A stretch of 32,270 bases of DNA from Anaerolineaceae bacterium. Lineage in GTDB: Bacteria > Chloroflexota > Anaerolineae > Anaerolineales > Villigracilaceae. Position numbers and translations under genes: made by a program. The notes under the pieces are model-generated. The model had not been told where the DNA came from. It saw nothing but the letters and a program-made list of their open reading frames with translations, and made no database searches. Of this stretch, positions 12,037-31,323 are shown in pieces (the stretch's first letter is position 1; each line of letters begins with the position of its first letter). The stretch is from the NCBI GenBank assembly GCA_009885525.1, contig VFKN01000177.1, forward strand, positions 1 to 32,270, read 5' to 3'.

Positions 12037-13452
12037 ATGGGTCATATTTTCATCAGTTACAGCCACAAAGATAAAGACTATGTCCACAAACTTCAAAATG
12101 TCCTGCAAAACGAGGGCTTTGAGGTTTGGATCGATGACCGTATTGATTATGGTGAAGAATGGCCCACCGAGATCGAATTGCGGCTGGATCAATGTGAGGC
12201 ATTTATTTTGGTTGTCAGCGAAAATGCGAAGAAATCAAAGTGGGTGCAAAATGAAGTGCGGCGGGCGGAGCGGACGGGAAAGCCTTTTTTTCCGCTTGTG
12301 CTTCAAGGTGATCCGTGGCTGTACATTGAAAGTATTCAATGGTTTGATGTCAAAGACGGATCCGTGCCTGACGAAAAATTTTTTCGGCGGCTTGCAAATT
12401 TTGCGACGAGAAGAAAATCTTCTGTCGAAAGACAGTATGAGCCGAAACCTGTAGGTCAAACAAACGCGCAGCGTGTTGAGCGCCTTGCTGAGAGACGAAC
12501 CACTACTGCTAACACTCGGGCTGTAAGCCCGACCTACGTCACCATTGGTGGAGTTGTGATCGTTGCTTTGTTGGGACTTATCTTTGGCATAAATTATCTT
12601 CTCAATATCCCCGCTTCTGTAACGCCGACTGAAACTGTAAATTCAACGCCTTTTGAAACAGCGGTTATCTCCACTTCAACTGAAACAAAAAATCCACCGA
12701 CGCGCACGCTCGTTCCGCCCGCATTTACGCCGACCCCTGGCATCGGCTCGATCTTCATGTCTGACGGCGTGACCATGCTTTACGTCCCGGCTGGAACTTT
12801 CTCGATGGGCAGCGAAAAAGATAATGATGAAAAGCCAATCCATTCCGTTGATTTGGATGGCTATTACATGGATAAATACGAAGTGACCAATGCCGCCTAC
12901 AAACGCTGCGTGGATGCGGGTACATGTGCCGCGCCAAAAGAAAGTAAGTCATACACGCGCCCCGCATATTATGGTAATTTTGAGTTTGACGAGTTTCCCG
13001 TCATTTATGTTGATTGGAACATGGCAAAGACCTACTGCGAATGGCGCGACTCAAGATTGCCCACCGAAGCCGAATGGGAAAAAGCCGCACGCGGTACAGA
13101 TGGGCGTACTTATCCGTGGGGTGAAGATATTAGCTGCGATAAATTGAATTACAATAATTGTACAGGAGACACGACCAAAGTTGGCAGTTATCTTGATGGC
13201 GTTAGCCCTTATGGACTTTACGATATGGCTGGCAACGTGTGGGAATGGGTGAGTGATTGGTATGATGGAAAATATTATCAAAATTCGCCCTCCTCGAATC
13301 CTTTGGGAGCGGCTTCTGGTTCATATCGCGTGCTGCGGGGCGGCTCGTGGAACTACGTCGATAACGTCACTCGTTCCTCGTATCGGTTCAACGTCACTCC
13401 CGATTACATCAGCAACGGCATCGGTTTCCGCTGCGCCCGCTCACTTCCTTGA
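12037..13452 (+). CDS. DGR target: TIR - transmembrane - FGE-sulfatase (C-type lectin) variable receptor
   Basis: This 471-residue protein begins with a TIR domain (residues 1-95: HIFISYSHKDKDYVHKL, GFEVWIDDRIDYGEEW, and SKWVQNEV with Glu73 at the position of the NAD-cleaving glutamate). Then come a basic linker and one membrane helix at about 167-189 (VTIGGVVIVALLGLIFGINY). A Thr/Pro-rich linker follows, then an FGE-sulfatase domain of C-type-lectin fold at about 235-471 (MLYVPAGTFSMGS, RLPTEAEWEKAARG, YGLYDMAGNVWEWVSDWYDG, LRGGSW). The last 40 residues are encoded by the DGR variable repeat. Basic residues before the helix favour TIR inside and lectin outside. It is probably a receptor whose ligand-binding face is diversified by the adjacent retroelement and which signals or kills through the TIR domain; ligand unknown. 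Confidence 0.9.
   Translation: MGHIFISYSHKDKDYVHKLQNVLQNEGFEVWIDDRIDYGEEWPTEIELRLDQCEAFILVVSENAKKSKWVQNEVRRAERTGKPFFPLVLQGDPWLYIESIQWFDVKDGSVPDEKFFRRLANFATRRKSSVERQYEPKPVGQTNAQRVERLAERRTTTANTRAVSPTYVTIGGVVIVALLGLIFGINYLLNIPASVTPTETVNSTPFETAVISTSTETKNPPTRTLVPPAFTPTPGIGSIFMSDGVTMLYVPAGTFSMGSEKDNDEKPIHSVDLDGYYMDKYEVTNAAYKRCVDAGTCAAPKESKSYTRPAYYGNFEFDEFPVIYVDWNMAKTYCEWRDSRLPTEAEWEKAARGTDGRTYPWGEDISCDKLNYNNCTGDTTKVGSYLDGVSPYGLYDMAGNVWEWVSDWYDGKYYQNSPSSNPLGAASGSYRVLRGGSWNYVDNVTRSSYRFNVTPDYISNGIGFRCARSLP
13327..13442 (+). repeat. DGR variable repeat (VR)
   Basis: This 116-nt segment aligns without gaps to the template repeat at 15017-15132 (offset 1690). It differs at 17 positions (13354, 13357, 13358, 13360, 13366, 13367, 13371, 13381, 13387, 13388, 13393, 13394, 13405, 13412, 13417, 13418, 13440). 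Every difference falls on an A in the template. Ten of fourteen template Asn codons are changed, to Tyr, Val, Asp, Val, Tyr, Phe, Val, Tyr, Ser and Gly; two changes are silent. The last 21 nt before 13440 are invariant and GC-rich, as expected of an initiation-of-mutagenic-homing sequence. VR encodes residues 431-469 of the target. Confidence 0.96.
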
Positions 13453-13535
13453 TCCTGTTTTCTGTGTTCTGGTTTTCTGATCTTCTGACTTCGCTAATTT
13501 ACAGAAGCGCTGTCTATTCACAGTCGTCCCACCTT

Positions 13536-13551
13536 CTCGCCGTAAGGCGAG
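13536..13551 (+). other. GC-rich hairpin with GTAA tetraloop downstream of VR
   Basis: ctcgcc (13536-13541) and ggcgag (13546-13551) enclose a GTAA (GNRA-type) loop, 93 nt after VR and 20 nt before the RT start codon. In the Bordetella phage DGR a hairpin just after VR helps target recognition. This one is farther away, so the role is uncertain. Confidence 0.4.
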
Positions 13552-13571
13552 TCGCGCAAAAAAAGGCGGTT

Positions 13572-14630
13572 ATGGGCAAAGCATACAATAACTTTTATCC
13601 GCAAATATATGATCTGATGAACTTGTGGCTTGCTTTTGGCAAAGCATCCAAAGGACGGCGTGGTCATCCTTCCATCGTTGCGTTTGAATACAATCTTGAA
13701 AAAGAGTTGGTGCAGCTGCGCGATGAATTGCGCGATGAAACATACATGCCGGGCGGTTATCGAAGTTTTACGGTGCATGAACCGAAGAGGAGAAAGATTT
13801 CAGCCGCGCCGTTTCGGGATCGGGTGGTTCATCATGCGCTAATGAATGTGGTTGGTCCCATGCTGGAAAGAAAATTTGTTTTTGATAGTTACGCCAATCA
13901 GGTTGGGAAAGGCACTCATAAGGCGCTGGATCGCTGTACATATTTCATGCGCCGTTATGAATATGTTTTACCTTGTGACATAAAGCAATTTTTTCCATCC
14001 ATTGACCACCAAATTCTAAAATCTGTGCTGGCGAACACTGTTAAGGATGCGCAGGCGTTGCAATTGATCGAACGTATCATTAAAAGTGGGGAAGGAGTGT
14101 TGAATGACGAATATGACATGACTTATTTTCAAGGAGATGATCTCTTTTCTAAAAACCGCCCGCGCGGTTTACCCATCGGTAATTTAACCAGTCAGTTTTG
14201 GGCGAACGTGTATATGAATGAATTGGATCAATTTGTCAAACAAAAATTGAAAGTTCGCGCCTATTTGCGTTATGTGGATGATTTTGCGTTGTTTTCAAAC
14301 GACAAAAAAGAACTGCGCGAATGGCGTGCCGCCATCATTAATTTTTTAGCGGGTTTGCGTTTGACCATTCACGAAGAGAGCGCGCATACTCGTCCTGTTT
14401 GGAAAGGAATTACCTTTTTAGGTTTTATTGTCTTTCCCGATCATCGCCGTTTGAAGCCGCCCAAAGGATATGCTTTCCGCCGCCGTTGGAAACATCTTTA
14501 TTCAATGCGTAAAAATGGAATGATGAGCTCCGACGATTTGAAAGTTCATGCGGTTGCATGGGCAAACCACGCGCGTTATGGCGATACGTGGAATTTAAGA
14601 AGAAAAATATTAAACTCGGTAAAATCATGA
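13572..14630 (+). CDS. Diversity-generating retroelement reverse transcriptase
   Basis: The 352-residue protein has the RT palm motifs: DIKQFFPSID at 136-145 (motif A), GLPIGNLTSQ at 199-208 (motif B) and YVDD at 234-237 (motif C). The Ile-Gly-x-x-x-Ser-Gln form of motif B, instead of the usual QGxxxSP, is typical of DGR RTs and is linked to error-prone copying at template adenines. No maturase or endonuclease domain follows, which argues against a group II intron. The start MGKAYNNFYPQIYD is chosen because the upstream extension (from 13449) overlaps the target gene and is hydrophobic, unlike RT N termini. Its stop overlaps the avd start (ATGA, 14627-14630), so the two are translationally coupled. 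Confidence 0.95.
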   Translation: MGKAYNNFYPQIYDLMNLWLAFGKASKGRRGHPSIVAFEYNLEKELVQLRDELRDETYMPGGYRSFTVHEPKRRKISAAPFRDRVVHHALMNVVGPMLERKFVFDSYANQVGKGTHKALDRCTYFMRRYEYVLPCDIKQFFPSIDHQILKSVLANTVKDAQALQLIERIIKSGEGVLNDEYDMTYFQGDDLFSKNRPRGLPIGNLTSQFWANVYMNELDQFVKQKLKVRAYLRYVDDFALFSNDKKELREWRAAIINFLAGLRLTIHEESAHTRPVWKGITFLGFIVFPDHRRLKPPKGYAFRRRWKHLYSMRKNGMMSSDDLKVHAVAWANHARYGDTWNLRRKILNSVKS

Positions 14631-14971
14631 CTGAAAATCAATCTCCCATTTTTGTAAAAACATCTAATTTCCTGTTGTGGATGATGCAGCATACCGATAA
14701 TTTCCCCAAAAGCGAACGTTTTCGGCTTGCAAAACGCATCGAAGATTCTGCCTTTGATTTTTATGAGAATTTAGTTCACGCTGTAAAAGCGCGCGACAAA
14801 AGAAGATTTTTGTTGCAAGCCGACTTGGAACTGGATAAATTGCGTTTGTATCTTCGGCTTGCCCATCAACGCAAACTCACCAGCCATCCGCAGTATCTTT
14901 ATTCCGCCGAGGCTTTAACTGAAATTGGAAAGTTACTTGGTGGTTGGTTGAAAACCATTCCACAGACATAA
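14627..14971 (+). CDS. avd: DGR accessory variability determinant, Avd-like four-helix protein
   Basis: The 114-residue protein starts MTENQSPIFVKTSNFLLWMM and has four amphipathic helices, including FPKSERFRLAKRIEDSAFDFYENLV and LELDKLRLYLRLAHQRK. Size, basic charge and helical pattern match Avd of known DGRs. In Bordetella phage Avd is a pentamer that binds RT and the template RNA and is required for mutagenic cDNA synthesis. It is coupled to the RT gene by a 4-nt overlap and lies 45 nt upstream of the template repeat. The longer frame from 14558 overlaps the RT gene and is rejected. Confidence 0.87.
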   Translation: MTENQSPIFVKTSNFLLWMMQHTDNFPKSERFRLAKRIEDSAFDFYENLVHAVKARDKRRFLLQADLELDKLRLYLRLAHQRKLTSHPQYLYSAEALTEIGKLLGGWLKTIPQT

Positions 14972-15016
14972 AGGCATTTTCAGGCTGTAAAGTCTGCTTA
15001 TGTGGGGACGCCAGAG

Positions 15017-15132
15017 CGCGTGCTGCGGGGCGGCTCGTGGAACAACAACAATAACAACACACGTTCCTCGAATCGGAACAACAACACTCCCGATAACATC
15101 AACAACAACATCGGTTTCCGCTGCGCCCGATC
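15017..15132 (+). repeat. DGR template repeat (TR), part of the template RNA
   Basis: This 116-nt non-coding segment is the parent of VR. It contains 35 adenines, nearly all in AAC/AAT triplets in the target frame, so it would translate as runs of Asn (GGSWNNNNNN, then NNN twice more). Mutating adenines in such codons can reach many amino acids without creating stop codons, which is the known design of DGR templates. The flanks diverge from VR at both ends (before 13327/15017 and from 13443/15133). The RNA probably spans from the avd 3' end to the hairpins at 15248 or 15299. Confidence 0.96.
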
Positions 15133-15247
15133 TCTTCTTATGGTCTTTCAAGCCTGAATGTATCGCGTTCATGGATGCGGTGCGAGCGCTTTGGAAGTGA
15201 GTCCTGGCGATTCCCGCCCAATTCTCTTGTTGGGCAAATATAAAATA

Positions 15248-15287
15248 GTCCCATTCCCTTCATTCTTTGAAATAATTGGAATGGGAC
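15248..15287 (+). terminator. Hairpin downstream of TR
   Basis: gtcccattcc (15248-15257) pairs perfectly with ggaatgggac (15278-15287) around a 20-nt loop. No T-run follows, so it may be a structural part or 3' end of the DGR template RNA rather than a terminator. Confidence 0.45.
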
Positions 15288-15298
15288 ACCTTAAACCA

Positions 15299-15340: not shown

Positions 15341-15598
15341 TTATGCTTTTATCGCTTCAATAGCATTTACCCAAAGTTCGTACTCGCTCAGATCCAGCTT
15401 GTCGCTCCATGAAATTCCGTAGCCGCCAGCATCCACTTTTACCTGCTTGAAGAGGACTTCATTTTCCAAAGCCTTGAACGGCTCGAACTTTTCTATTAAC
15501 GGTTTGCAATCGTATATCTTTTCAATGCCATTGGCGAATTTGACCCGTAATTTTTTGTCTTCCAAAGGCTGCGCGGATAAAATCTTTGGAGTTTCCAT
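15341..15598 (-). CDS. DUF2442 family protein
   Basis: The 85-residue protein (METPKILSAQPLEDKKLRVK, FANGIEKIYDCKPLI, ISWSDKLDLSEYELW) matches the DUF2442 pattern of a beta-hairpin start followed by an SxxLDLxxxxLW end. It lies 7 nt downstream of a DUF4160 gene. The two families are often adjacent and have been suggested to form toxin-antitoxin-like or regulatory pairs; this is not proven. The start METPK is preferred to the upstream Met, which lies within the DUF4160 gene. Both arms of a convergent terminator separate it from the DGR. Confidence 0.85.
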   Translation of the reverse strand: METPKILSAQPLEDKKLRVKFANGIEKIYDCKPLIEKFEPFKALENEVLFKQVKVDAGGYGISWSDKLDLSEYELWVNAIEAIKA

Positions 15599-15605
15599 TT
15601 TTTTT

Positions 15606-15860
15606 CTACTCCAATCCGGGCAATTGTTTGAATTCATTTGTCTGCCACATGCGAAGCAACTCATCCTTGTATGCTGTAGCCCAATCTTTGACCAACTTAT
15701 GCGCTCGTGAAGGCAGGTCGCCTTCCATCATTTCGAGGGTTTGAATATTGTAGACTGCATTGTATTCGCCATACACTGCATGGAAATGAGGAACTCCATG
15801 TTCGCTTTGGCTGAAATACATCTTGATCACAATTCCGTAAAAACGAGAGATCACTGGCAT
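15606..15860 (-). CDS. DUF4160 family protein
   Basis: The 84-residue protein begins MPVISRFYGIVIKMYFSQSE and contains HGVPHFHAVYGEYNAVY. The F-x-G-I-x-I-x-M-Y, H-x-x-P-H-F-H-A pattern is characteristic of DUF4160, and the histidine cluster could bind metal. It precedes the DUF2442 gene with a 7-nt gap, so both are probably made from one transcript. A run of aaagaaggt directly before the ATG supplies a Shine-Dalgarno sequence. Function is unknown. Confidence 0.87.
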   Translation of the reverse strand: MPVISRFYGIVIKMYFSQSEHGVPHFHAVYGEYNAVYNIQTLEMMEGDLPSRAHKLVKDWATAYKDELLRMWQTNEFKQLPGLE

Positions 15861-30282: not shown

Positions 30283-31323
30283 TTAGGTGTCGAGGGGTGA
30301 TTTGACGGCGAGTCCGCCGCGTTGTAATACGTGGGTGTAGATCATGGTGGTTTTGATGTCTTTGTGGCCGAGGAGTTCCTGGATGGTGCGGATGTCGTAT
30401 CCGTTTTGGAGGAGTTGGGTGGCGAAGGAGTGGCGGAAGGTGTGGGGTGAGACTTGTTTGTTTATGCCTGCGGCTTTGGCGGTTTCGCGGATGTTTTTTT
30501 GTAATACGGTTTCGTCGAGGTGGTGGCGACGGATGACGCCGGTGAGCGGGTCGGTGGAGCGTTGGGAGGCGGGGAAGATGAATTGCCATGCCCATTCTTT
30601 GGAGGCGCTGGTGTATTTTGCGTCGAGGGCGTTGGGGAGGATGGTTTCGCCGTAGCCTTCGGTGAGGTCTTTTTGGTGGAGGGTTTTTACATCCAGGAGC
30701 ATGTGTTTGATTTCGGGGATGATGCTTTCGGGGAGGATGGTGAGGCGGTCGTTGTCGCCTTTGCCGCCGCGGACGATGATTTGATGGTTGTCGAAGTCTA
30801 TATCTTTGACGCGCAGGCGCAGACATTCCATGATGCGGAGTCCGGAGCCGTAGAGGATTTTGGTCATGAGGCGGGGGATGCCGTGCATGCGGTTGATGAT
30901 GTTTATGGCTTCGGCGTGGGTGAGGACGGTGGGCAGGCGTTTGGGGCGGGATGCGTTGGAGAGGTCGGGCGGGACTTTCATCTCTCTTTGGAGGACGGTG
31001 CGGTAGAGGAAGAGGATGGCGCTAAGGGCTTGATTGGAGGTGGATGCGGCGACTTTGCGTTCTGCGGTGAGGTGGGCGATGAAGGCGCGGATTTCGGTTT
31101 CGCCCATGTCGTTGGGGTGGCGTTTGTTGTGGAAGAGGATGTAGCGTTTGATCCAGTCTTTGTAGGTTTGTTCGGTGCGGTAGGAGTAGTGTTTGGTGCG
31201 GAGGGCGTCGCCGACTTGTTCCATAAGTTTTTTGGCTGGGGGGGTTGATCCGCTCTGCGGTTTTTCGCCGGTTTTGGGGGTGGTGGTGTTTTTTTGTAAA
31301 GTGGGTGTTGTTTTTTGATTCAT
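30283..31323 (-). CDS. intI: Integron integrase (IntI-type tyrosine recombinase)
   Basis: The 346-residue protein has an N-terminal SAM-like DNA-binding domain ([18 protein letters not shown], about 44-61) and a tyrosine-recombinase catalytic domain: [20 protein letters not shown] (first Arg), [20 protein letters not shown] (His-x-x-Arg), [16 protein letters not shown] (Gly-His and catalytic Tyr). It also carries the integron-specific insert between these blocks ([25 protein letters not shown] then [20 protein letters not shown]). This insert separates IntI from XerC/XerD. It should recombine attI with folded single-stranded attC sites to capture cassettes. The start follows a GGGAGA Shine-Dalgarno; the first 30 residues are Thr/Pro/Lys-rich. 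It is divergent from the cassette on the right, as in typical integrons. Confidence 0.93.

Follow-up and report, generated by a model that had tools for sequence, protein, structure and literature searches.

A complete diversity-generating retroelement in an Anaerolineales-type Chloroflexota genome, with a TIR and lectin-fold target and a likely second target elsewhere

Which genes does the diversity-generating retroelement (DGR) at 12037-15288 of the DNA studied here rewrite, and has it kept doing so? The window, that is, the whole stretch analysed, comprises 32,270 nt of contig VFKN01000177.1, part of a metagenome-assembled genome (MAG; 4.1 Mb, 206 contigs, 89% complete) of a Chloroflexota (Anaerolineales-type) bacterium from a group that we presume to grow as filaments. 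The DGR is complete: on the + strand, a target gene is followed by a hairpin, a reverse transcriptase (RT), the accessory protein Avd, a template repeat (TR) and a template flank. We consider it quite probable that its template RNA is copied with errors at adenines and that the copies overwrite the end of the adjacent gene and of at least one other gene. In the sections below we present the repeat pair, the variable repeats found elsewhere in two related genomes, the target protein and the flanking hairpins, and then weigh this explanation against its alternatives.

Adenine-specific differences and a fixed border letter

Over 116 positions, the variable repeat (VR, 13327-13442) and the TR (15017-15132) have 17 mismatches, each facing one of the 35 adenines of the TR, a placement expected by chance with a probability of 4e-11 (hypergeometric). 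A first-pass annotation, made from the sequence letters, had reported this pair together with an RT and an Avd-like protein between the repeats, and had called the whole a complete DGR with the pattern of mutagenic retrohoming; we reproduce the pair and find the target, RT, Avd and template all present, as follows:

12037..13452, + strand: target (variable protein) gene, 471 amino acids (aa); open reading frame (ORF) with Pfam TIR_2 and FGE-sulfatase above cut-off
12046..12393, + strand: TIR domain, residues 4-119; TIR_2 at 91.6 bits and alignment to solved TIR domains
12253-12255, + strand: WxxxE glutamate E73 of the TIR domain; position in the TIR alignment
12541..12603, + strand: one predicted membrane helix, residues 169-189, ahead of a linker rich in Pro and Thr; hydropathy
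12772..13440, + strand: FGE-sulfatase/C-type-lectin-fold domain holding the VR, residues 246-468; 201.5 bits
13327..13439, + strand: VR core; VR/TR alignment
13419..13439, + strand: unmutated block at the VR 3' end, resembling an initiation-of-homing site; identical to TR 15109-15129
13440..13440, + strand: fixed border letter, C in the VR and A in the TR (15130); comparison with related pairs
13536..13551, + strand: hairpin CTCGCC-GTAA-GGCGAG behind the VR; motif also behind remote VRs
13572..14630, + strand: DGR-type RT, 352 aa; RVT_1, LPIGNLTSQ at 14169-14195, YVDD at 14271-14282
14627..14971, + strand: Avd accessory protein, 114 aa, its start overlapping the RT stop; bAvd and NF033474
15017..15129, + strand: TR core; VR/TR alignment
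15130..15288, + strand: template 3' flank holding a pair of hairpins (15216-15235, 15248-15287); extent of DNA similarity to two relatives

The RT scores 68.8 bits with RVT_1 (cut-off 29.6), matches brt of phage BPP-1 at E 3e-44, and is 51-59% identical to nine relatives; the SQ of its LPIGNLTSQ motif is a mark of DGR RTs. Avd scores 71.2 bits with bAvd (cut-off 40) and 100.5 bits with NF033474 (cut-off 80). Because the template matches the 3' end of the target gene, except at adenines, up to the border, the RT most likely copies template RNA with errors.

Not all of the 17 mismatches are products of adenine mutagenesis, as had first been supposed. Sixteen lie in the VR core, where 16 of 34 template adenines are changed and none of the 79 other positions, and these stand; the seventeenth (VR 13440 C, TR 15130 A) falls directly behind the 21-nt unmutated block. 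Similarity between the repeats continues to 13447/15137, and the mismatch that follows the 17 (13443) faces a template T. To place the border letter, we turned to related loci collected with an alignment of ten RTs (the best 80 of 543 confirmed) and supplemented them with six more taken from the order's genomes; 56 of the 80 gave a TR/VR pair, and 55 of these are credible, that of L075 being a tandem-repeat artefact. Among 68 related pairs examined for the border (four unresolved; a second reading of L063, and L075 itself, excluded beforehand), the combination of TR A and VR C is the first difference behind the block in 59 of the 64 resolved. The exceptions are L052 (G/C) and L103 (A/G), along with L037, L057 and L098, which deviate with another run picked or an indel present. 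Inside the VRs of the related set, a template A is read as C in 120 of 1613 cases. Since the A/C letter is fixed across relatives, the seventeenth mismatch is not mutagenesis, and the true count is 16. By analogy, the 13440/15130 difference looks like a local form of the known VR/TR 3'-end difference, which in Bordetella phage prevents the TR from acting as recipient (PMC4891356; this paper and the others cited here are drawn on in part). A/C is ruled out as a rule for all DGRs: it occurs in 0 of 12 readable records among 13 named phage and plasmid DGRs (L127-L139), whose borders were read by eye, L139 being unreadable.

As the annotation stated, 15 of the 17 mismatches change the amino acid of their codon, and two are silent. 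It had also offered the lack of stop codons as evidence of activity, an argument that fails: none of the 20 template codons bearing an A can mutate to a stop, so that their absence says nothing about selection or activity. Its statement that the element is or was recently active stands on other grounds, namely the own-template letters in five VRs described next. The TIR/helix/lectin target, the VR on contig C172, the second DGR, the border letter, the hairpin and the 3' flank all go beyond that annotation.

Remote variable repeats carry the letters of their own species' template

The window genome holds a second VR for the window template, on contig C172 (L005 7512-7635), in an AAA_35-TPR-FGE gene that comes after a TIR-AAA_35 gene; no RT was found on C172. 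In this VR, 17 of 34 template adenines are changed and none of the 79 other positions, and it has one extra codon. The near and C172 VRs differ from each other at 22 sites, every one of them a template A.

In a relative from the same genus (G071, a MAG, 85% complete), a single template matches, and each of three further contigs bears one VR. Over the 341 bases that were searched, the template contig, C247, is identical with locus L053, and its RT is 84% identical over 235 residues; C247 begins inside the RT, and one of the G071 VRs may therefore adjoin it across an assembly gap. The three VRs lie in a TIR-FGE gene, in a TIR-helix-FGE gene with 57% identity to the window target, and in an FGE gene cut at a contig end. 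Their cores have 13, 17 and 17 of 32 adenines changed and 0 of 81 other positions each. Pooled over the five VRs of the two species, 80 of 158 adenines are changed and 0 of 401 other positions.

The window and G071 templates differ at 5 of 121 positions. At all five, the three G071 VRs have the G071 letter; at the three of these sites where the window template has a letter other than A, both window VRs have the window letter. The VRs thus follow their own species' template at non-A differences, which descent without rewriting would not yield, and this points to rewriting after the split. Read in this way, the own-template letters form our strongest evidence that copies of the template would have reached these genes after the species separated, and it is likely that one template has kept rewriting several sensor genes since then.

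One further candidate in the window genome (C64:38413-38462) was rejected as a VR; it is an FGE relative whose differences from the template include non-A positions. The same genome has a second DGR, on contig C37 (L027 11611-13502), with an RT, a TR/VR pair, a 472-aa FGE target and an Avd-like ORF judged by eye; when its template was searched in the genome, it matched only itself and its own VR.

The target joins a TIR domain to a variable lectin-fold domain

By domain match and alignment, the target carries a TIR fold with the WxxxE glutamate. Matches of the TIR domain include a TIR from a bacterium at 2.8e-6 and RPV1, a plant resistance protein, at 1.8e-4, with TLR1 a weak hit at E 0.25; PADLOC places the domain closest to the Thoeris ThsB model, with other defence models matched too. 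The FGE part matches FGE structures at E 8e-31 and the DGR variable protein TvpA (2y3c) at E 1e-16, which places the VR at the C-terminus of a C-type-lectin (CLec) fold; judged from these matches, the target is a CLec sensor joined to an effector domain of conflict systems (TIR + FGE). An enzymatic function of the FGE part was considered and rejected: the VR aligns over what we take to be the active-site segment of human FGE, and the cysteines of that segment are missing.

The hydrophobic stretch at residues 169-189 is preceded by four Lys/Arg in 20 residues and followed by none in 20. We scanned the best 120 of 7995 matches to the target protein for domains, and 67 of them contain both TIR and FGE. 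A hydrophobic stretch lies between the two domains in all 67 (a count made without a negative control) and has a Lys/Arg excess on its N-side in 62; a cysteine-pair pattern occurs in 0 of the 67. From hydropathy and charge, the TIR end would be cytoplasmic and the variable lectin end would lie outside. A further TIR-FGE-like match in the window genome, G000:C31:122-1411, covers residues 4-410 and has lost its C-terminal end at a contig end.

A hairpin behind the variable repeats, and the template 3' end

The hairpin behind the window VR has a 6-bp stem and a GTAA loop and lies 96 nt behind the unmutated block. Searches with the pattern CTCGCC-(3-5 nt)-GGCGAGTCGCGC hit two sites in the window genome and two in G071, all of them behind VRs, and the reversed pattern occurs 0 times in either assembly. 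As the pattern was picked after the sequences behind the VRs had been viewed, the new information is that it is found nowhere else in both assemblies. Behind the third G071 VR stands a hairpin variant of 7 bp, which escapes the pattern. Stems of at least 7 bp were also counted, and are present behind 39 of 70 VRs vs 110 of 1400 random stretches from the same loci; this control leaves terminators in, and the window's own 6-bp stem is outside the 39, so that we prefer the pattern search over whole assemblies. In BPP-1, efficient homing requires the hairpin (PMC3240598). By analogy, the window hairpin likely has a role in homing; it is shorter, more distant and different in its loop from that of BPP-1, and we therefore put this no higher than likely.

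At the other end of the cassette, DNA similarity of the template flank to L045 and L053 ends at 15288, and the last template hairpin has 2 of 10 pairs changed on both sides between the window and L045 (three sequences). We infer that the flank up to 15288 would belong to the template RNA.

Related loci suggest exchange of effector heads, and decay

Between the window and L045/L046, identity is 81/80% in the RT, 64/76% in the FGE part and 30/29% in the TIR domain, so that the effector head seems to have been exchanged while sensor, RT and template stayed together. In a tree of the RTs collected here (82 rows, quick search; L060 left out, its RT being interrupted), the window falls in a set of 10 with a support of 97 (Shimodaira-Hasegawa-like approximate likelihood-ratio test, SH-aLRT). 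The target N-terminus in this set is TIR in 7 of 8 readable rows and caspase in 1 of 8; one further target is cut off and one was not found. Clustering of TIR on the tree was tried and dropped: with the five TIR rows as first labelled, 5 changes are needed, and 500 of 500 shuffles were as low (this count labelled L046 and L049 as 'other', before their TIR domains had been read). Among 69 target entries, 36 contain NACHT and 6 TIR.

At E 1e-40 or better, the RT is found in 13 of 61 genomes, the window genome included; the target protein at 1e-60, matched mostly in its FGE part, is found in 56 of 57 genomes of the genus. Near-full-length matches to the target occur in five genomes of the same genus (G071, G070, G064, G080, G002), and among those five the RT is found only in G071 (7 genomes searched), which rules out that TIR-FGE genes are always bound to a DGR. 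Two RT genes are broken by one stop each, a TAG in G031:C201 (L030/L060) and a TAA in G071:C52, and these interruptions point to decay among some of the genus's DGRs.

Length variation was considered as a new feature and is not claimed. The VR is one codon longer than the TR in L045, L057, L060, L087, L091 and C172 (6 of 70 pairs), and also in G071 C353 (L176); no VR is one codon shorter inside the core, and L083 has one case that is 18 nt longer. Other indels are not multiples of three (L055, L059, L063, L094, L095, L097, L119), they may be MAG errors, and slippage in threes at AAC runs has already been posited (PMC12875486).

Proposed mechanism and its alternatives

We propose that the RT would copy template RNA with errors at adenines and that the cDNA would overwrite the 3' end of the TIR receptor gene and of at least one other gene. 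With the TIR domain inside and the variable lectin outside, binding of a ligand to the lectin would activate the TIR effector; the result would be a hypermutable alarm receptor, most likely directed against phage or foreign cells.

Several observations weigh against this explanation. Four TIR-FGE targets (L047, L049, L057 and G071 C331) are without a membrane helix, and relatives exist that have full-length TIR-FGE genes but in which no RT was found. The window hairpin falls outside the ranges of phage DGR hairpins in stem, loop and distance (7-10 bp stem, GRNA loop, 4-34 bp away; PMC3240598). The last template hairpin is followed by a T run in L045 and L053 but not in the window. Finally, both genomes are incomplete MAGs, and the remote VRs hence depend on binning.

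The alternative that survives best, although we think it somewhat unlikely, leaves the mechanism intact and changes its purpose: the receptor would serve to recognize kin, hosts or nutrients instead of phage or invaders. A lectin-fold sensor would suit such a use, and kin recognition has been named as an alternative (PMC10907252); on the other hand, the TIR domain matches defence-system models, and conflict-system domains (NACHT, caspase or EAD7) occur in the targets of related DGRs. We regard as unlikely that the cassette is a relic that once worked and no longer rewrites its targets. Broken relatives, the G031 RT of L060 with its TAG and the one G071 RT with its TAA, speak for it, but in the window the RT and Avd reading frames are open with their motifs present, and neither the near nor the C172 VR has drifted at any of the 79 non-A core positions, though the template differs at 5 of 121 from that of the nearest relative. 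Faulty binning or assembly, with the remote VR belonging to another organism, gains some plausibility from C172 being a MAG contig of 9380 bases; the C172 VR nevertheless has the template letters of the window genome and not those of G071, plus the same hairpin, which makes this reading very improbable. A course in which the gene was duplicated and its lectin loops then came under selection or gene conversion, with no retroelement step, can draw on the paralogy of the near and remote targets (66% identity over 173 residues of the FGE part), but is hardly credible in view of differences confined to adenines in five VRs, with none at 401 other positions, and of a non-coding template that adjoins an RT and Avd.

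Beyond the proposed mechanism lies a broader reading that we advance tentatively, holding it rather doubtful as a whole. Under it, proteins of this type would form a bacterial Toll-like receptor family with a programmable lectin ectodomain, in which one template re-diversifies dispersed sensors in trans, addressed by the hairpin and the A/C border; the sensors would include those with membrane TIR, soluble TIR and AAA-TPR heads, and hairpin plus border would make an FGE gene a target. The likeness to Toll-like receptors is one of working only, a TIR-helix-sensor layout based on hydropathy and charge, and with a TLR1 match as weak as E 0.25 we claim no membership in that family.

Relation to known systems

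DGRs that diversify putative sensors of conflict systems are already known as a kind, given that cellular DGRs have been described as diversifying CLec sensors of such systems, with TIR effectors, Chloroflexi hosts and activity in trans (PMC10907252), and that cyanobacterial DGRs have TIR-like, membrane-predicted and remote variable proteins (PMC7517822). The DGRs of Dore et al. 2024 (Thiohalocapsa PB-PSB1, clade 5; PMC10907252) resemble the window in having an RT, Avd, TR and a C-terminal CLec/FGE target, in their NACHT/TIR effectors, in the presence of several DGRs per genome and in targets served in trans. Their targets are mostly NTPase- or vWA-based, whereas the window target has a TIR domain, one predicted helix and a lectin-fold domain, and no NTPase by Pfam. 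The cyanobacterial DGRs share a C-terminal CLec VR set on signalling domains, and remote variable proteins, but kinases prevail among them (PMC7517822); the records of cyanobacterial plasmid DGRs compared here differ from the window in gene order and border letters. In FGS-centred counter-invader systems, the FGS (=FGE) fold is likewise the proposed DGR-diversified sensor, with effectors such as TIR, but there FGS is fused to a STAND NTPase or vWA, or the TIR domain is on a separate protein (PMC8195603, PMC7159879). BPP-1 is alike in its RT, Avd, adenine-specific TR/VR differences, unmutated block and hairpin behind the VR, and differs in its phage tail target and in a hairpin that is nearer the VR and has a GAAA loop (PMC3240598). 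Its border is C/A where that of the window is A/C, and its TR stands before the RT where that of the window stands after Avd. No description of a TIR-single-helix-FGE target was found in the DGR literature searched, which did not cover supplements.

The locus offers a compact test case for the role of cellular DGRs: a single chain of 471 aa unites the TIR effector, the predicted helix and the mutable sensor, and a second gene, as the C172 repeat indicates, is served by the same template. Template letters that differ between species indicate, with no need of population reads, that a DGR rewrites scattered genes on an evolutionary time scale. Remote targets, which by its own account a large survey of DGRs on contigs cannot detect (PMC8144416), can be looked for at little cost with rules drawn from the hairpin motif and the A/C border.

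Neighbouring genes

A promoter scan gave 3 matches vs 5.7 expected. Just behind the template, on the opposite strand (15341-15860, -), lie a DUF2442 gene and a DUF4160/DhiT-like gene, the latter at 98.9 bits with NF048015, slightly below the cut-off of 100; the two are likely a toxin-antitoxin pair. At the contig end is an ISKra4-like transposase fragment (201-845, +; NF033572 at 111 bits, cut-off 205), followed by a PIN gene at 936-1385. The window also contains an integron integrase at 30283-31323 (-), in a Chloroflexota genome, with 439.6 bits for TIGR02249 (cut-off 265).

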